Shown piece after piece: positions 1-61,996 of a stretch of DNA of 61,996 nucleotides. The DNA lies in IMG/VR virus record IMGVR_UViG_3300043436_000818, positions 1-61,996 of that record; one strand, 5' to 3'. The notes beneath the pieces are model-generated. The model saw only the letters and a list, made by a program, of their open reading frames with translations, made no database searches and was not told the DNA's origin. Position 1 is the first letter of the stretch. Every line of letters begins with the position of its first letter. Source of the stretch: a virus. Both the position numbers and the translations under genes were made by a program.

Positions 1-127
1 AATGAGCAACAATAAACAAAGTATGAAACTATACACTAAAGAAGACTTTTTAAAAGCCGCTGAATTTTGCGAAGTGTCAATGATAGATGCGAAATATATA
101 ATTGAACGCATTGATGAAGTAAGCGAC
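1..127. repeat. Terminal direct repeat, left copy
   Basis: Bases 1-127 are identical to 61870-61996. An exact overlap of 127 nt is what a de Bruijn assembler using k=127 leaves on a circular contig, so I read it as an assembly overlap and not a packaged terminal repeat. The same stretch, extended to 157 nt, also occurs internally at 31636-31792. Confidence 0.93.
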
Positions 128-955: not shown

Positions 956-1495
956 ATGAAAGAATCAATAATAATCTATCGCAGTTTTTATGAAGCGATT
1001 AAAGACTTGCCAAAAGAACAACAAGCAGACGCTTGGAATGCAATCTTTGAGTATGGTTTAAACCAAACCGAAGTACAATTAACTGGTATTGTTTCCACAG
1101 TATTTAAGTTAGTCAAACCTCAATTAGATGCCAATCTTAAACGCTATGAAAATGGCAATAAAGGAGGTAGACCAAAGAACCAAACAGAAACCAAACAAGA
1201 ACCTAACTATAACCAAACAATAACCAAAGTCGAACCTAATGTAAATGTTAATGTAAATGATAATGAAAAGGTTAATGTAAATAAGAAGTTTATTAAACCC
1301 ACACAAGACCAAATTAGAGAGTATATGTTAGAACAAAGAATGAACGATGAATCCGAACGCTTTTACAACTACTATGAGGCAGTAGGATGGAAAGTAGGAC
1401 GTAACCCAATGAAGAATTGGAAAGCAGCGGTAATTACTTGGAAGAAGAACCAACAACCTATACAAACCATTAACAACAATTATAGAGTATTATGA
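956..1495 (+). CDS. DUF6291-like replication/primosome protein
   Basis: 179 residues. The N-terminus (FYEAIKDLPKEQQADAWNAI, then KPQLDANLKRYENG and KGGRPKN) matches the DUF6291/DUF4373 type of phage replication proteins. A low-complexity Asn/Val/Lys linker follows. The C-terminus (FYNYYEAVGWKVG, MKNWKAAVITWKK) is the short tail common to phage DnaD-like initiators and helicase loaders. It directly follows the structured leader RNA; its start codon lies one base beyond the T9 tract. It overlaps the DnaB gene by 4 nt, so a helicase-loader or initiator role is likely. The counterpart after the phage B leader (59712) is a different protein with the same kind of tail. Confidence 0.7.
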   Translation: MKESIIIYRSFYEAIKDLPKEQQADAWNAIFEYGLNQTEVQLTGIVSTVFKLVKPQLDANLKRYENGNKGGRPKNQTETKQEPNYNQTITKVEPNVNVNVNDNEKVNVNKKFIKPTQDQIREYMLEQRMNDESERFYNYYEAVGWKVGRNPMKNWKAAVITWKKNQQPIQTINNNYRVL

Positions 1496-2721
1496 ATTTA
1501 GAACTACACATCGTTAGCAACATAATGTTCTACGAAAAGAACTATGTTTATCTACCCCGAATTAAGGGTAATTGGTTTACTAACCCACTACACCAACAAA
1601 TAATCCAAGCAATGCAATTTTTGTACTTGCAGAACCAACCATTCGGTTTATACGAGATTGTTAACCACATCGGACAAGAGAAAGCCTACGAGGTATCAAT
1701 GATTCTAAATTCTGTTATGGGTACGGGAGAAATTGAACCACATATTAAACAACTCCAAGCGGTATCACTTAAACGTCAATTAGTAGATAAGTTAGGAGGA
1801 TTAGACTTAACACGCGATTTAAAGGCTATTACAAGCGATTTAACGCAATATGTCGAAGAAGCGATGATAGTACACGCAAAAGAATCAATTGCGATGAATA
1901 AGGTAACTGCAAAGACGTTTGACGATATGGTGTCAGCAATCGAGAGAGGTGATTCAATTAATGGTAGACCAACGGGATGGATTCGGTTAGATAGGGTTAT
2001 AGGTGGTTGGAATAAGGGAGACGTTGTTATTATAGCGGGGAGACCAGGTTCGGGGAAGACTTCCATAGCGTTAACCTTTATTCTAAACGCTGCTAAACTT
2101 GGTTCAAAGTGTTTGTTTCTATCATTGGAAATGAGCAACGAGCAAATTGCCAAGCGTTATATGAGTTTGATTTCTTCGGTTACAAACGGAAAGATACGTT
2201 CGGGTAATCTTGACAAACGAGACATTGAAACATTAGCGGTTGCTATTGTAAACGATGACAATGTATTCCACATAGACGATGAGGCGATAGTTGATATTAA
2301 CACAATTAAATCTAAGGTTAAGATTCACAAAGCGAAGTTCGGATTGGATGTATTGGTTATCGACTATTTACAATTGATTAAGGGGAACAAGCAAAACAGA
2401 GAGCAAGAGATATCCGACATAAGCCGCAACCTAAAAGTGTTAGCCAAAGAATTAGATATCACCGTTATTGCATTGGCTCAGTTATCGAGGAAGTGCGAGG
2501 AACGCTCAGACAAACGTCCTATGCTATCCGACATTAGAGAGAGTGGAAGTATAGAACAAGATGCAGACGTTATCTTATTTCCATTCCGTCAAAACTACTA
2601 CGATAGGCAATTACTCGATATTGAGGATAGTGAATTGATAGTTGCAAAGAACAGACACGGAGAGGTAGGAATGATTGAGACTGAATTTATACCATCACGA
2701 ACATATTACAGAGAAAAATAA
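1492..2721 (+). CDS. dnaB: Replicative DNA helicase, DnaB family
   Basis: 409 residues, close to full length for DnaB. The N-terminal domain (1-100) is followed by a linker and a RecA-like domain. Walker A is GRPGSGKT (~183-190), SLEMS follows the next strand, Walker B is LVIDYLQL (~288-295), then LAQLSRKCE, and SDIRESGSIEQDAD with KNRHGEVG near the end. This hexameric 5'-3' helicase unwinds the fork for phage replication. It overlaps the upstream primosome-like gene by ATGA coupling. Only phage A encodes one, so phage B presumably recruits the host helicase. All catalytic motifs are intact. Confidence 0.95.
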   Translation: MNLELHIVSNIMFYEKNYVYLPRIKGNWFTNPLHQQIIQAMQFLYLQNQPFGLYEIVNHIGQEKAYEVSMILNSVMGTGEIEPHIKQLQAVSLKRQLVDKLGGLDLTRDLKAITSDLTQYVEEAMIVHAKESIAMNKVTAKTFDDMVSAIERGDSINGRPTGWIRLDRVIGGWNKGDVVIIAGRPGSGKTSIALTFILNAAKLGSKCLFLSLEMSNEQIAKRYMSLISSVTNGKIRSGNLDKRDIETLAVAIVNDDNVFHIDDEAIVDINTIKSKVKIHKAKFGLDVLVIDYLQLIKGNKQNREQEISDISRNLKVLAKELDITVIALAQLSRKCEERSDKRPMLSDIRESGSIEQDADVILFPFRQNYYDRQLLDIEDSELIVAKNRHGEVGMIETEFIPSRTYYREK

Positions 2722-2743
2722 ATTAAAAATATTTTTGAAAAAG

Positions 2744-2774
2744 TTTGCATATTCAAAAAAAGGTTGTAGATTTG
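2744..2774 (+). promoter_or_regulatory. Strong Bacteroidota-type promoter
   Basis: TTTG at 2744-2747, a 19-nt spacer, TAGATTTG at 2767-2774; a perfect match to the consensus. The ATG of the next gene begins 5 nt after the -7 box, so its transcript would be leaderless or nearly so. Confidence 0.8.
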
Positions 2775-2778
2775 AATC

Positions 2779-3030
2779 ATGGAAACAATGAAAAAAACAA
2801 TAGAAAGAACAAATGACACAAATGTATCAATGGCTAACGGATATATTGCACATAACAACATAGTCCATAAAATTCGTATTGTTAGATATAACATTAATGG
2901 TCAAGATATGGTAAGCATGATACCTGTATGTGGAACATCATATAAACGTGGTCAAGAGAGACTAATAAAAAATGAATCACATATTAATTGTGAAAAGTGT
3001 TTAAAAAGATTATCTAAACAGGGTGCTTAA
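2779..3030 (+). CDS. Small Cys-containing hypothetical protein
   Basis: 83 residues with no recognised family. It has CxxC spacing near the end (NCEKCLKR) plus an earlier Cys, suggesting a small zinc-binding protein. It has its own promoter and its own terminator, so it is a monocistronic unit, probably early and strongly expressed (inference). The last codons and the stop form the 5' arm and loop of the terminator hairpin. Confidence 0.6.
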   Translation: METMKKTIERTNDTNVSMANGYIAHNNIVHKIRIVRYNINGQDMVSMIPVCGTSYKRGQERLIKNESHINCEKCLKRLSKQGA

Positions 3031-3042
3031 TTGCACCCTTTT
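3021..3042 (+). terminator. Rho-independent terminator
   Basis: GGGTGC, loop TTAATT, GCACCC, then TTTT. It overlaps the last codons of the gene ending at 3030. The same hairpin and loop occur at 57114 in phage B. Confidence 0.8.
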
Positions 3043-3055
3043 AAATATTATAGTA

Positions 3056-3232
3056 ATGAATAAAAAAGATAATCGAGGAGGCATTCGCATAAATGCAGGT
3101 GCTAAACCTAAATATAGTGAGCCTACTAAAACAATTGCATTTAGATGTCCAGTATCAAAAATAAATGAAATAAAGTTAGTTGTAAAAAATCAACTTGAAA
3201 AATGGGAGGTAAAAAATGAATTATCAAGTTAA
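3056..3232 (+). CDS. Small ribbon-helix-helix-like protein upstream of the mom-like gene
   Basis: 58 residues: a basic start (GGIRINAGAKPKY), then TKTIAFRCPVSKINEIK, which resembles the strand-helix entry of MetJ/Arc-type regulators common in Bacteroidota phages. I chose the ATG at 3056 because it lies just beyond the upstream terminator. It overlaps the mom-like gene by 17 nt. In phage Mu the small Com protein overlaps and activates translation of mom; this gene sits in the same position but does not look like Com, so a matching role is only a guess. Confidence 0.55.
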   Translation: MNKKDNRGGIRINAGAKPKYSEPTKTIAFRCPVSKINEIKLVVKNQLEKWEVKNELSS

Positions 3233-3893
3233 ACCAATAGATTACCAAGATTGCAAAGAGTGGTTTTTAAAAAAACACTATTTAAAAAGGTTGCCATCAA
3301 TCACCTATTGTTTTGGTTTATATGACAATAATATTTTAATTGGGATATGTTCCTTTGGCAATGCAGTTCCTTTGACTATGAAACGAAGTGTATGCGGTGA
3401 AGAATACGAACATTTAGTATATGAGTTAAACAGATTGATTGTAAACGACAACCACGAGAAAAACATGACCAGTTATTTTGTGGCACAATGTTTAAGACAA
3501 TTACCGAAACCTTTAATTATTGTTTCCTATGCCGATAAATCACAAGGTCATAACGGATATATTTATCAATCTACTAATTTTATTTATTTAGGTTTATCAC
3601 ATACACAAAAGGATTGGAAGATAAAAGGCGAAGAAGATAAACACTCACGCACTTTAATGGATGAATTTGCATTTACTCCTAATCGAATACAACTACTAAA
3701 AGAAAAATATGGAGATAGATTATATCAAGTAGAACGTGAACCAAAACATAGATACGTTTACTTCTTAGGAAGTAAAACACAAAGACAAAAATTCATCAAA
3801 GCATTAAGGCATCAATCACAACCATATCCAAAAGGTGACAATCAACGCTATGATGCTTCTTATCAACCAACAACACAAGCAAAACTATTTTAA
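3216..3893 (+). CDS. mom: Mom-like DNA adenine modification protein (GNAT-fold)
   Basis: 225 residues. The pattern CKEWFLKKHYLKR, ITYCFGLYDNN..IGICSFG, YELNRLIV, YFVAQCLRQLPKP..IVSYAD..QGHNGYIYQ..NFIY is that of the phage Mom family, which converts adenine in phage DNA to N6-methylcarbamoyl-adenine and protects it from restriction. The acyltransferase-like core is complete and is followed by a ~60-residue basic C-terminal extension ending in low-complexity Gln/Thr. Phage B has no counterpart and carries a ParB-methyltransferase fusion instead. Assigned from motif pattern; activity is inferred. Confidence 0.75.
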   Translation: MNYQVKPIDYQDCKEWFLKKHYLKRLPSITYCFGLYDNNILIGICSFGNAVPLTMKRSVCGEEYEHLVYELNRLIVNDNHEKNMTSYFVAQCLRQLPKPLIIVSYADKSQGHNGYIYQSTNFIYLGLSHTQKDWKIKGEEDKHSRTLMDEFAFTPNRIQLLKEKYGDRLYQVEREPKHRYVYFLGSKTQRQKFIKALRHQSQPYPKGDNQRYDASYQPTTQAKLF

Positions 3894-3894
3894 A

Positions 3895-4395
3895 ATGGAA
3901 AACCCTTATCAGAAAATCTATGACCTTGAAAAACAAAACAAGTCATTACAATCAAAAATGGAACGTATGCGTAAGATGTACGAAGACAAGTTGGCAGAAC
4001 TCAGACACGAGATTCTTTACCCCAAAATCAAGTACACGAAAAAACTTGAAGATTGGGAGATTGTATTAGCGGAGATTTGCAAAGTGTACAACACAACCCC
4101 TGCAATGGTATTGAGCAACTCTCGTAAGATGGAATACACCGCACCTCGACATTTATTTTGCTACATCCTACGCTTTCACTACGGAATGAAAGTAGTTGCA
4201 ATAGGTCGGATATTAATAAAAGACCATACAACAGTGTTACACGCTTGTAAAACAATCGAATACTATTTAGAATATGACAAAATCCTCCAACGAAACTACG
4301 CCACCCTCCTTGAGGTATTGGGATTTAACAATGACAAAGGGAATCTACACCACAATAATCATTCTCTACAACGAGTCAGAAGTGGAGTATTATGA
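3895..4395 (+). CDS. DnaA domain IV-like DNA-binding protein with N-terminal coiled coil
   Basis: About 166 residues from the ATG at 3895. Residues ~5-45 form a coiled coil (KIYDLEKQNKSLQSKMERM). The C-terminal ~95 residues carry a DnaA domain IV signature: ICKVYNTTPAMVLSNSRK, APRHLFCYILRFHYGMKVVAIGRIL, KDHTTVLHACKTIEYYL. In DnaA this domain binds the DnaA box through DHTTV. No AAA+ module is present, so it would bind DnaA-box-like DNA without initiator ATPase activity, as an origin-binding or decoy protein (inference). Located after the helicase and mom-like genes. Confidence 0.72.
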   Translation: MENPYQKIYDLEKQNKSLQSKMERMRKMYEDKLAELRHEILYPKIKYTKKLEDWEIVLAEICKVYNTTPAMVLSNSRKMEYTAPRHLFCYILRFHYGMKVVAIGRILIKDHTTVLHACKTIEYYLEYDKILQRNYATLLEVLGFNNDKGNLHHNNHSLQRVRSGVL

Positions 4396-5523: not shown

Positions 5524-6080
5524 ATAGTTTTGGAGGAAGTTGGGACGATAAAAAGTGTTTCAATAAAGAACTAGAATGGAACATACACTTAGACGATATG
5601 GGCTACGTTAACCTATTTAAGTCAACTGCGGAATATATAATCCCTATGTGTCACCCTAAAGAGTTTGTAGACTTAGGCGGTGGAATGGGTGGTTACTCAT
5701 TAGCAATGCGTGATAAAGGGGTAAGCGTGAGATACTACGACCAAAACAAATTTCACTATGAATATTACGTTGACAGAGTATTGAACACTATTGCGTACAA
5801 TTGTGACTTTACCGAAGAGAAAATACAAGGTGACTTAGTAGCATCAATAGAAGTGTTTGAACATATACCCGATTCCAAGTTAATACCATTTCTAAGTGAC
5901 TTACAATGTAATTACTTCCATTTCAGTTCAACTCCTAACACAAGCGAACTCGATAAAGAATGGGGACACATCAATATCAAGAATCGCCACCAATGGATAG
6001 ACCTATTTCAATTGTGCGGATTTAGATTTGAGAGGGATTTAATGATGCCTACTCCGTGGGCTATGCTATTCAGTAAATGA
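5520..6080 (+). CDS. Class I SAM-dependent methyltransferase-like protein
   Basis: 186 residues. The glycine-rich SAM loop is VDLGGGMGGYSLAM (~50-63), followed by an acidic YYDQN strand and SIEVFEHIPDS, the typical motif of small class I methyltransferases. No DNA-MTase DPPY motif is visible, so the substrate may be a protein, sugar or small molecule. It lies between a CxxC protein and an HNH gene, upstream of the terminases. It could act with the glycosyltransferase at 7486 (inference). Confidence 0.7.
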   Translation: MNSFGGSWDDKKCFNKELEWNIHLDDMGYVNLFKSTAEYIIPMCHPKEFVDLGGGMGGYSLAMRDKGVSVRYYDQNKFHYEYYVDRVLNTIAYNCDFTEEKIQGDLVASIEVFEHIPDSKLIPFLSDLQCNYFHFSSTPNTSELDKEWGHINIKNRHQWIDLFQLCGFRFERDLMMPTPWAMLFSK

Positions 6081-6328
6081 AGAAATACACCCGAACATAC
6101 CTAACCTATTTTGAATACGATGAAACCGATTTTATACCTTGCGAAGTATGCAACAAACAAGCAGTTGACATCCATCATATCGAGGCAAAGGGAATGGGAG
6201 GAAGTAAGACAAAGGACAACATAGAGAACATAATGGCACTATGTAGAGATTGTCATATGAAGTACGGAGATAAGAAACAATACAAGGATTTTTTAAAACA
6301 GATACACTCAACTAAAATTCGTAATTAA
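6077..6328 (+). CDS. HNH endonuclease
   Basis: 83 residues with a complete HNH fold: structural Cys pairs CEVC and CRDC, catalytic VDIHHIE, then NIENIMALCRDCHMKYG. Small HNH proteins next to terminase genes assist DNA packaging/cleavage in many siphophages; a homing role is the alternative. It sits directly before the small terminase gene, which supports packaging. Confidence 0.85.
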   Translation: MKKYTRTYLTYFEYDETDFIPCEVCNKQAVDIHHIEAKGMGGSKTKDNIENIMALCRDCHMKYGDKKQYKDFLKQIHSTKIRN

Positions 6329-7323: not shown

Positions 7324-7489
7324 TACATTAGACCAAGTACCCAATGACGATTTCCTTGTTTTGGTATCTCAAGACAACGGAGATAAAACCCTTGCCCGAT
7401 ACTATGAAGATATGTGGATTTGTGAGTTTACGAATCGGGTTATCTTCGTAGCGTATTGGATGCCTATACCTTTAACACCAACCGAATGA
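7304..7489 (+). CDS. DUF551-like small protein
   Basis: 61 residues. The pattern MKKTWRST, VPNDDFLVLV, YYEDMW, YWMPIPLTP resembles DUF551, a short phage/bacterial domain of unknown function that ends in WxPxP. A homologue (34788) lies at the same position in phage B, immediately before the glycosyltransferase and sharing an ATGA overlap with it. Confidence 0.7.
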   Translation: MKKTWRSTLDQVPNDDFLVLVSQDNGDKTLARYYEDMWICEFTNRVIFVAYWMPIPLTPTE

Positions 7490-8490
7490 ACCTACTACTA
7501 TTATGCGATGGAATGAACGGAGTAATCTATCATCGTATCGCAACACCTCACCTCCGTATGCAATTAATGGGATTGGCAAATGTAGACGTTTGCCAAAACC
7601 CTGCGGAGTTCTTAGACATCGATTACAAAGCATACGATTTAATTATATTCTCTCGGTGGTTAGGTGAGAAACACTATGATGTACTCAAGAAGATAGCACA
7701 GAGTGGCACGAAGTACGCGGTGGATGTGGACGATTATTGGGCTTTACCTCGTTACAATCCTGCATACCAAGCGTATCGGAAAGGAATCAAACAAGCCGTA
7801 AAGGATTCAATGCACTATGCAGACGCAGTAATTGCCACAACTCCACACCTACAATCCAAAGTATTCGAGTTTAACCGCAATTGTTACATAGTACCCAATT
7901 GCTTAGACTACGAACACGAACAATGGTCACAAGAGAAATGGAAGTCATATAACCTACGCATCGGATGGGTTGGAGGTGTAACACACTACGAGGATTTAAA
8001 GTTGTGTAACGAGGCTATAAATAGGCTACAATCGCATTATGACTTTGAGTTCTATATATGCGGTTATACCCCGAGCGAAGAATGGGACAAAATTGTCAAG
8101 TTATTCAACAACCCTAAGATAGTAGGCGGTGTGAACACCTTTGAATACGGACACGCTTATAAACACTTGGACTTTGTTATAGCACCCCTACTCAATGAAT
8201 CGTTCAACAACCACAAATCAGAGTTGAAGATATTAGAAGCGAGTGCATACCAATTGCCCATAGTGGTTAGTGATTGTTACCCTTACAAGTACTGCGAAAA
8301 CAACTTGGGTGTATTGTTTGCTGCAAACGACAAATGGGAAGATAGAATAGAAAAAATGATTCTAATGAGTGACGATGCAAGAATCGGAATGGGTCAACTA
8401 AACGGAGAGTATTCTCGTAAGCATTATAACTTAGAACATTGGTGTAGAGAGAGAGAGTTAATCTACAAGAAGATTATAAATGGAAATTGA
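7486..8490 (+). CDS. Glycosyltransferase, GT-B fold
   Basis: 334 residues from the ATG at 7486 that overlaps the previous stop. N-terminal domain: LLLCDGMNGVIYHRIATP, SRWLG, KYAVDVDDYWALP. C-terminal nucleotide-sugar domain: LRIGWVGGVTHYEDL, FYICGYTPSEEW, VIAPLLNESFNNHKSELKILEASAYQLPIVVSD, the GT4-type ExxxxxxP region. It is homologous to 34970 in phage B, at the same place before the terminase. Likely adds sugar to phage DNA, a virion protein or a host surface glycan; the substrate cannot be told from sequence. Confidence 0.82.
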   Translation: MNLLLLCDGMNGVIYHRIATPHLRMQLMGLANVDVCQNPAEFLDIDYKAYDLIIFSRWLGEKHYDVLKKIAQSGTKYAVDVDDYWALPRYNPAYQAYRKGIKQAVKDSMHYADAVIATTPHLQSKVFEFNRNCYIVPNCLDYEHEQWSQEKWKSYNLRIGWVGGVTHYEDLKLCNEAINRLQSHYDFEFYICGYTPSEEWDKIVKLFNNPKIVGGVNTFEYGHAYKHLDFVIAPLLNESFNNHKSELKILEASAYQLPIVVSDCYPYKYCENNLGVLFAANDKWEDRIEKMILMSDDARIGMGQLNGEYSRKHYNLEHWCRERELIYKKIINGN

Positions 8491-31434: not shown

Positions 31435-31640
31435 GCAACGAAACACAACAAACAATAGTTCAGTGGATTAGACACCAAATAAAACAACAAGGTGTTAGTC
31501 ATTATTTTACAACAAGGGAAATACTTGATAGAGCTGAACAAATGGAAAATGAGCAACGTAAAAAAATTTGGAACGAAGCATTAAAATCAGTTGAAAAAAA
31601 ATTAGAATTATTAAAAGAAATCTACGGAGGTAACAAATGA
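31431..31640 (+). CDS. Small array protein, MSNETQQ family
   Basis: 69 residues, helical: QTIVQWIRHQIKQQGVSHYF, DRAEQMENEQRKKIWNEALKS, ending EIYGGNK. Its C-terminal codons again encode a GGAGGT ribosome site for the next ATG. A paralogue of its neighbours by layout; function unknown. Confidence 0.58.
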   Translation: MSNETQQTIVQWIRHQIKQQGVSHYFTTREILDRAEQMENEQRKKIWNEALKSVEKKLELLKEIYGGNK

Positions 31641-31792
31641 GCAACAATAAACAAAGTATGAAACTATACACTAAAGAAGACTTTTTAAAAGCCGCTGAAT
31701 TTTGCGAAGTGTCAATGATAGATGCGAAATATATAATTGAACGCATTGATGAAGTAAGCGACCCCATCGAACTACCAAGTGATGAGGAGATA
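31636..31792. repeat. 157-bp internal copy of the contig start; likely A/B junction
   Basis: Bases 31636-31792 equal 1-157 exactly, and the first 127 equal 61870-61996. Divergence begins at 158/31793 (C versus G). The upstream base also differs (A at 31635, C at 61869). This is the only place where the two phage genomes touch, so it is the point where assembly could have crossed over. Confidence 0.9.
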
Positions 31793-34801: not shown

Positions 34802-34973
34802 ACACCCAAGCAAACAATTACCATCCGATGGGTTGCACGTATTAATCGTGGATATATACGACAATAAATTTATTGCCTATTACGATGGAGAGGATTGGTT
34901 TGATGTTCATACCGAAGAACATATCCAACACGTTGAATGGTGGATGTATATTCCAATAACACCAAGCGAATGA
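34788..34973 (+). CDS. DUF551-like small protein
   Basis: 61 residues: RHPSKQLPSDGLHVLIVD, YYDGEDWFDVH, WWMYIPITPSE. Same length, order and ending as the phage A protein at 7304, again overlapping the glycosyltransferase start by ATGA. Function unknown; conserved linkage suggests it acts with the glycosyltransferase. Confidence 0.7.
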   Translation: MKAYRHPSKQLPSDGLHVLIVDIYDNKFIAYYDGEDWFDVHTEEHIQHVEWWMYIPITPSE

Positions 34974-35968
34974 AAGTGTGTGTAATAATGGATGGCATGA
35001 GTGCCGTTACCTACCATCGATTAGCAATGCCGTGGGCAATGATTCGTTTCCATCAACAATTGGATGTAACATTTGCCATCACCAAGCCCGAAATAGAGGC
35101 GGTAAATGTTCAGGATTACGATGCTATTGTAATATCTCGATACCTACGATTCAATACCAAACTTATAACCGATTGTAAAAAGTACGGTGTCAAATTCATT
35201 GTTGATAATGATGACCATTGGATTATTCCAAAACATAACCCTGCCTATTCCTCATACAAGAAAAAGGCAAAGGATGGTGTAATATCATGCATAAAGGCAG
35301 CCGATGCGTTAATTGTTACCACCCCACAATTGGCAGAGAAAACAAAAGAAATCAACCCAAAGGTTTACATTGCCCCCAACGCATTGGATTTGGAAGAACC
35401 ACAATGGAACGCCAAGGCAGCACACCCCTTTACAATTGGATATGTTACAGGCTCATCCCACCTATATGATGTGAAGCTATTAGAGAATCAGTTATCCCAT
35501 GTACTGAAACGCAATCAATGTAATTTTCTATTGGCTGGTTATGCACCAATGGAACGAATATCACAGATGATGGAATACTACATCACGGGCGAAAAGGAAC
35601 GCCCTACGTGGTTCTATATCGGTGAGGGTGTCAATGTGTTAAACTATGGTAAATACTATGCATTTATGGATGCCGTTATTGCACCATTGGAAAAAACATC
35701 GTTCAATAAGTATAAATCGGAATTGAAGATAATTGAAGCTGCGGCATATAGATTACCCATCTTTGTTAGTGCCGTTGAACCATACACCAACCATAGAAAA
35801 AACAAAGGCGTGATTTTTGTAGAGAATAACGATTGGAGTATATTGGATAAATATTTAGCCGATAAAGCGTTATTAAAAGAGTTGGGTGAAGCCAATTACC
35901 AGTATTGTAAAGAACACCACAATTTATACCAAGTAAATGAACAACGAATTAAAGCGGTTACAGATTGA
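34970..35968 (+). CDS. Glycosyltransferase, GT-B fold
   Basis: 332 residues from the ATG at 34970. Starts VCVIMDGMSAVTYHRLAMPW like the phage A enzyme (LLLCDGMNGVIYHRIATP). Shares VDNDDHWIIPKHNPAYSSYKK and, in the C-terminal sugar-nucleotide domain, VIAPLEKTSFNKYKSELKIIEAAAYRLPIFVS. It overlaps the next glycosyltransferase by 32 nt. Substrate not known. Confidence 0.82.
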   Translation: MKVCVIMDGMSAVTYHRLAMPWAMIRFHQQLDVTFAITKPEIEAVNVQDYDAIVISRYLRFNTKLITDCKKYGVKFIVDNDDHWIIPKHNPAYSSYKKKAKDGVISCIKAADALIVTTPQLAEKTKEINPKVYIAPNALDLEEPQWNAKAAHPFTIGYVTGSSHLYDVKLLENQLSHVLKRNQCNFLLAGYAPMERISQMMEYYITGEKERPTWFYIGEGVNVLNYGKYYAFMDAVIAPLEKTSFNKYKSELKIIEAAAYRLPIFVSAVEPYTNHRKNKGVIFVENNDWSILDKYLADKALLKELGEANYQYCKEHHNLYQVNEQRIKAVTD

Positions 35969-61723: not shown

Positions 61724-61884
61724 GAATTGTTGTTAAACACAAAAACACGGAAGTTGTCATCGAGGATGGCGAAACTAAAACCGACACTAATTCCAATCTA
61801 ATCTACTACAATCAAAAGTATTTATTAGAATTGTTGGACAAGATTTTTAAAGAGATTAAAGCATTGGACAATGAGCAACAATAA
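61720..61884 (+). CDS. 54-residue small-array protein (copy 2)
   Basis: MRIVVKHKNTEVVIEDGETK, then NLIYYNQKYLLELLDKIFKEI. Almost identical to 31038-31202, from which it differs at the second and fourth to fifth residues; the DNA from 61732 to 61888 matches 31050-31206. Overlaps the next gene by 14 nt. Unknown role. Confidence 0.65.
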   Translation: MRIVVKHKNTEVVIEDGETKTDTNSNLIYYNQKYLLELLDKIFKEIKALDNEQQ

Positions 61885-61996
61885 ACAAAGTATGAAACTA
61901 TACACTAAAGAAGACTTTTTAAAAGCCGCTGAATTTTGCGAAGTGTCAATGATAGATGCGAAATATATAATTGAACGCATTGATGAAGTAAGCGAC
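61870..61996. repeat. Terminal direct repeat, right copy
   Basis: 127 bases identical to 1-127, closing the circle. See the left copy. Confidence 0.93.
61871..61996 (+). CDS. 5' part of small array protein, continuing at the window start
   Basis: The open frame MSNNKQSMKLYTKEDF runs off the end of the window. It is the same 126 nt as 2-127, so it continues either as the 93-residue gene at the start or, in a separate phage B circle, as the gene at 31637. Confidence 0.7.
   Translation, partial: MSNNKQSMKLYTKEDFLKAAEFCEVSMIDAKYIIERIDEVSD

Follow-up and report, generated by a model that had tools for sequence, protein, structure and literature searches.

The window, the whole 61,996-nucleotide stretch of viral DNA analysed here, encodes a true Mom-family DNA-modifying acyltransferase of 225 amino acids (mom; 3216-3893, plus strand). 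Its family, fold and conserved signature are established, as is its place beside dnaB in a slot that relatives fill with methyltransferases or leave empty. What sets it apart is that a bona fide Mom, encoded in a slot for modification genes, has a probable clamp tag and a recognition region that is proposed to be exchangeable. The explanation that we favour, and hold to be rather probable, is a clamp-tethered Mom with an exchangeable recognition region that modifies the phage's own DNA against host restriction. Under this scheme, the acyltransferase would modify adenines in phage DNA and thereby block host restriction enzymes; the C-terminal QAKLF would bind the sliding clamp of the host and so couple DNA modification to copying; and residues ~127-172 would read the target sequence and be swapped by recombination between conserved gene ends, yielding new specificities against new restriction enzymes.

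The gene belongs to phage A (window 1-31635). An identical 127-base stretch occurs at window 1-127, 31636-31762 and 61870-61996, and window 31-31762 is matched at 100% by an independent contig of 31732 bases. Assembly has probably fused two circular phage genomes, of 31635 bases and ~30.2 kb, into the 62-kb record through the 127-base repeat. No isolated phage close to phage A in DNA was found. Seven genome-bin contigs carry a related Mom, four labelled Bacteroidetes, Bacteroidales, Winogradskyella or Ignavibacteria and three otherwise, and a host in the Bacteroidota is offered as a weak guess. The two phages of the record encode related genes (window 7456-8490 in phage A and 34937-35968 in phage B; 36% identical), of which the phage A copy matches a glycosyltransferase family.

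The resemblance to the Mom family goes far beyond chance. Residues 3-206 match Pfam Mom (PF25680; E 1e-40, 140 bits versus a curated cut-off of 27.1), and the protein also matches PHROG 1384, 'Mom-like DNA modification protein' (E 2.7e-58), which bears out the Mom-family pattern recognized in an earlier, sequence-only reading of this DNA. By sequence it also matches the structure of the methylcarbamoylase Mom of phage Mu (PDB 8bv8; E 3.1e-11), with alignment over residues 18 to 206. An AlphaFold2 model built from 27 input sequences (mean pLDDT 82, pTM 0.75) predicts a GNAT-type acyltransferase fold like that of Mu Mom, and a Foldseek search of this model against the PDB placed 8bv8 at ranks 1-2 (E 7.8e-11), followed by other GNAT acyltransferases; the structural check that the earlier reading had proposed, for an acyltransferase fold, thus returned Mu Mom as the top match. 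The signature SYADKSQGHNGYIYQSTN (residues 104-121; 3525-3578, plus strand), with the pattern SYAD..QGHNG.IYQ..N, is a conserved block of alignment A1 and lies within the most conserved part of the family. Ser86 is invariant in 27 sequences and likely corresponds to catalytic S124 of Mu Mom. This assignment proceeds by elimination from the alignment, because Ser86 faces an alanine (Ala115 of the 8bv8 chain, in a structure titled 'inactive mutant S124A') and Ser104, the other invariant serine, faces a serine.

Next to the replicative helicase gene, mom lies at a site of exchange between genes for DNA-modifying enzymes. The left border of this slot is a DnaB-like replicative helicase gene (1492-2721, plus strand; PHROG 19, E 2e-88), and the right border is a 166-aa ORF (3895-4395, plus strand) that is conserved near dnaB with mom, a methyltransferase or nothing in between and that by eye resembles the C-terminal domain of DnaA. 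The ORF following mom was used as the query for a survey, and the stretch between it and dnaB was read in 11 relatives. Two contain mom (L186, which is L005, with a Mom 90% identical to that of the window, and L199, which is L013, at 58%), one an N6 methyltransferase ending QQKLF (L195) and two a C5 methyltransferase (L190, Pfam E 2.9e-45; L197, assigned by similar sequence); the slot is empty in the other six (L191, L192, L193, L194, L196 and L198). Seven records of this slot-relative group, which may be fragments, have no Mom anywhere at E 1. The phage N6-adenine DNA methyltransferases (PF01555, PHROG 67) thus share with Mom both the slot, in L195, and a C-terminal Q..L[FL] motif, yet are unrelated to it in fold and chemistry. 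The C5 methyltransferase in the slot lacks a clamp motif; an apparent N-terminal one, MQTQLIF, in the L190/L197 gene was rejected as a spurious frame over the C5 methyltransferase. Elsewhere, at L007 and L010, mom is directly followed by a second copy of the 3' end of its upstream neighbour (30 nt and ~48 nt, respectively), which would fit an insertion of mom at that point. Such target duplications were present in 2 of 28 moms or arrays scanned (these same two); they were rejected as a general sign of insertion and serve as a hint only.

The same relatives bear on site avoidance. As the sequence-only reading had stated, phage A avoids GATC and GGCC, with 0 sites each versus ~118 and ~24 expected under a trinucleotide model; AGCT, CATG, CCGG and CTAG are also nearly absent, below 10% of expected. 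That reading further proposed that site loss is combined with base modification. The two do co-occur in phage A, but avoidance of GATC is a property of the lineage and is not tied to mom, because empty-slot relatives without mom purge GATC as well (observed/expected 4/116, 3/60 and 4/125, and 5/36 in a fourth, short one). Among mom phages of other lineages, GATC ranges from 0/115 up to 48/69. On the same grounds, the idea that loss of GATC complements the specificity of Mom was rejected. Phage B (window 31763-61869), which has no mom, purges other four-base palindromes, namely CCGG, CGCG, CTAG and GCGC.

The proposed clamp tag lies in a C-terminal tail (residues 207-225; 3834-3890, plus strand). 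Both the Pfam match and the chain of Mu Mom run out at residue 206 (PYPK), so that Mu Mom ends without a clamp-like tail and the window Mom continues into one, of which residues 212-225 are predicted to be disordered (pLDDT <50, AlphaFold2). In the available text of PMC11139829, the bacterial clamp-binding motif is given as Q-aliphatic-x-[L/M]-[F/L], or one residue longer. The terminal QAKLF (3876-3890, plus strand), within the predicted disordered segment, matches this pattern and is a candidate sliding-clamp-binding motif, although it fits the canonical form only through alanine as the aliphatic second residue. Our clade set comprised 41 distinct complete Moms, including 7 that come from genome bins. 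The ending Q..[LMI][FL] is present in 31 of the 41, or in 36 with relaxed forms such as QMVLEL, QGILSL and QLSAF, and their commonest second motif residue is threonine, as against an aliphatic one in the canonical motif as described in that source. Exceptions are L036-L039 (four loci, three distinct proteins), which end in ENTLF and lack the glutamine; the L042 Mom has a near-terminal variant of the motif and the distant L043 Mom has none. The Q..[LMI][FL] tail was found in none of 22 Moms of isolated phages, and therefore a clamp-like tail is no general component of Mom function.

Terminal placement of this pattern is enriched, and not in Moms only. It was found at 32 of 1445 ORF ends versus ~1.3 expected from the pattern's internal rate, 26 of the 32 being Moms, which are related and not independent. 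More informative are the six non-Mom ORFs. Three encode DNA methyltransferases, of which two are related to each other; the others are a PAPS-reductase-like protein, a winged-helix protein and an ORF on the antisense strand of the window, probably not a gene. For one of these methyltransferases (L014, 6295-6936; phage N6 methyltransferases), 48 of 60 distinct homologues have the Q..[LMI][FL] end, and three isolated-phage homologues carry QLKLF at the end, QAVLF further in or QGDLF near the end. Y-family polymerase ends in host-like genomes are clamp-like in two of seven loci (QLKFEF and QLYLF); the other five are uninformative, at least two being wrong frames. No report of a clamp motif on phage methyltransferases or Mom was found in the literature, in a search that covered subscription papers poorly. 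A single terminal tag on DNA modifiers that are not homologous but do the same job suggests that they share a docking partner, and the protein known to read this tag is the clamp; QAKLF of the window Mom would dock there too.

The middle of the gene behaves differently from its ends. Amino-acid identity is lowest in mom at residues 127-172 (0.39; 3594-3731, plus strand), the proposed target-recognition region. DNA of L005 and L013 is 96-100% identical along the 3' part of dnaB and as far as the opening bases of mom. Identity falls to 0.42-0.84 inside mom, then returns to 0.91-0.98 over the gene's final 60 bases and on into its neighbour, apart from 0.84 in the last stretch compared. The search that yielded the 42 loci used octapeptides of the two gene ends, so protein conservation at those ends is inflated; with the search octapeptides left out, agreement at fourfold sites (29 moms, 324 pairs below 65% protein identity) is 0.47 at the 5' end and 0.64 at the 3' end, as against 0.30-0.35 in between. 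DNA identity drops from 0.7-0.9 to ~0.3 exactly at the start and stop codons of mom (20 starts, 25 stops), in many different neighbourhoods. More than one Mom reading frame is present in 4 of 42 loci, one of them cut by the locus end, and L009 (4308-6522) holds three tandem moms with 4-nt overlaps and three different middles, plus a stub of a fourth mom start after the last stop.

Inserts mark the same position. The Mom of L040 (4667-5584) has 305 amino acids owing to an insert in its middle that is also present in L041 and L009. Searched against phages, this insert matched 12 records, all annotated as DNA methyltransferase or methylase (E 2e-5 to 9e-3); on its own in family look-ups it returned only PHROG matches at E 0.039-0.059, with no NCBIfam match and no solved structure, and it is modelled at low confidence (pLDDT ~40-60). 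In the three enzymes examined, the module lies after the QxRxR motif in two C5 enzymes and inside an N6/N4 enzyme in the third; the position after QxRxR is where the target-recognition domain of C5 enzymes is expected. The recognition regions of the C5 methyltransferases of Bacillus phage CM1 and Pelagibacter phage HTVC134P thus have in common with the L040 and L009 Mom inserts a module of ~80 residues. The window Mom differs in being a short form that lacks this methyltransferase-shared module, and its residues ~127-172 would be the recognition region corresponding to the insert site.

The strongest competing explanation, which we nevertheless consider unlikely, is an ordinary Mom with Mu-like chemistry and loose specificity, whose tail serves folding, dimerisation or DNA binding and whose middle diverged by neutral drift. 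Mu Mom is a loosely specific enzyme, fold and signature are those of Mu Mom, and Moms of Firmicutes phages keep a different conserved tail, with FYQ or similar at its end, so conservation of a tail can have other causes. However, the tail is predicted to be disordered, its variants obey the grammar of the clamp motif, and the terminal motif is shared with non-homologous methyltransferases, one of them in the same slot; a middle replaced between nearly identical ends is not drift. A very improbable role for this Mom is as one half of a restriction-modification pair, or as an enzyme acting on host DNA or RNA instead of phage DNA. Nuclease-fused Mom domains described for jumbo phages in the accessible part of PMC7824862 would fit such a role, as would an HNH ORF at 6077-6328, but no nuclease is fused or adjacent to mom, the HNH ORF lies >2 kb away, and the slot swaps Mom with solitary methyltransferases.

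The sequence-only reading had likened a 58-residue gene overlapping the start of mom to Mu com. The ORF exists as it was described (3056-3232, plus strand; start ATG at 3056, end at 3232, 17-nt overlap with mom), and like Mu com it is small, directly upstream of mom and overlapping it. Beyond this the likeness fails. Mu Mom is under elaborate Com control, and Com has four cysteines in a CCCC zinc finger, according to the sections of PMC6483171 available to us; the 58-aa protein has no Pfam, Com or zinc-finger match and one cysteine, so no CCCC zinc finger, and its best match is PHROG 6696, of unknown function (E 2e-5). The ORF is specific to phage A: it was found in 3 of 42 Mom loci of viral contigs (two of which, L007 and L011, have only ~205 nt upstream of mom), these three (L002, L003 and L004) being the same phage, with the other 39 lacking it, and in 1 of 10 whole records holding Mom relatives, that one being phage A. 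In L005, dnaB and mom overlap by 4 nt, both are ~90% identical to window DNA, and the 58-aa ORF is absent together with an 83-aa ORF with three cysteines (2779-3030, plus strand) that also lies between dnaB and mom in the window, which has a clean insertion at ~2716-3210. The 83-aa ORF, tried as an alternative small partner, was rejected because L005 lacks it. A 60% homologue of the 58-aa protein in L048 is located among structural genes, just upstream of one, with no mom adjoining.

Nor does the start of mom itself resemble that of Mu. It is preceded by a Shine-Dalgarno-like GGGAGGT, and no hairpin was found there, RNA folding being no stronger than in shuffled sequence (z +0.36 and +1.14). 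The 17-nt overlap arises because the 5' sequence of mom itself puts a stop at nt 17 in that frame; this out-of-frame stop recurs in 11 of 18 moms, and L019/L020 have an unrelated 58-aa ORF that likewise overlaps mom by 17 nt. Thus the Com analogy does not hold: despite the small overlapping ORF, it is extremely unlikely that the 58-aa protein activates translation of mom by binding its mRNA, given an ORF that is not kept with mom, a homologue without mom, no cysteine cluster, an unstructured mom start with no RNA target structure, and an overlap that mom accounts for. Under the favoured explanation, neither the 58-aa nor the 83-aa ORF regulates mom; both are passenger genes carried by this one phage. 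The window mom differs from Mu mom in adjoining dnaB and in having neither Com nor a translation hairpin. Control of Mu mom is also Dam-dependent, which cannot apply to phage A because its genome contains no GATC.

A broader version of the clamp-tethered reading is possible but tentative. It envisages a clade of uncultivated phages with a clamp-riding, modular Mom, in which a fixed core and tail would carry an exchangeable recognition region like those of HsdS or methyltransferases (even methyltransferase modules), and tandem arrays would lay down several adenine marks per phage during replication. If the clamp-tethered reading is true, Mom chemistry is a sequence-specific, evolvable anti-restriction tool, and a clamp tether would explain timely modification of phage DNA without Com. 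As 48 of 60 methyltransferase homologues have the same end, phage DNA modifiers may more widely ride the clamp.
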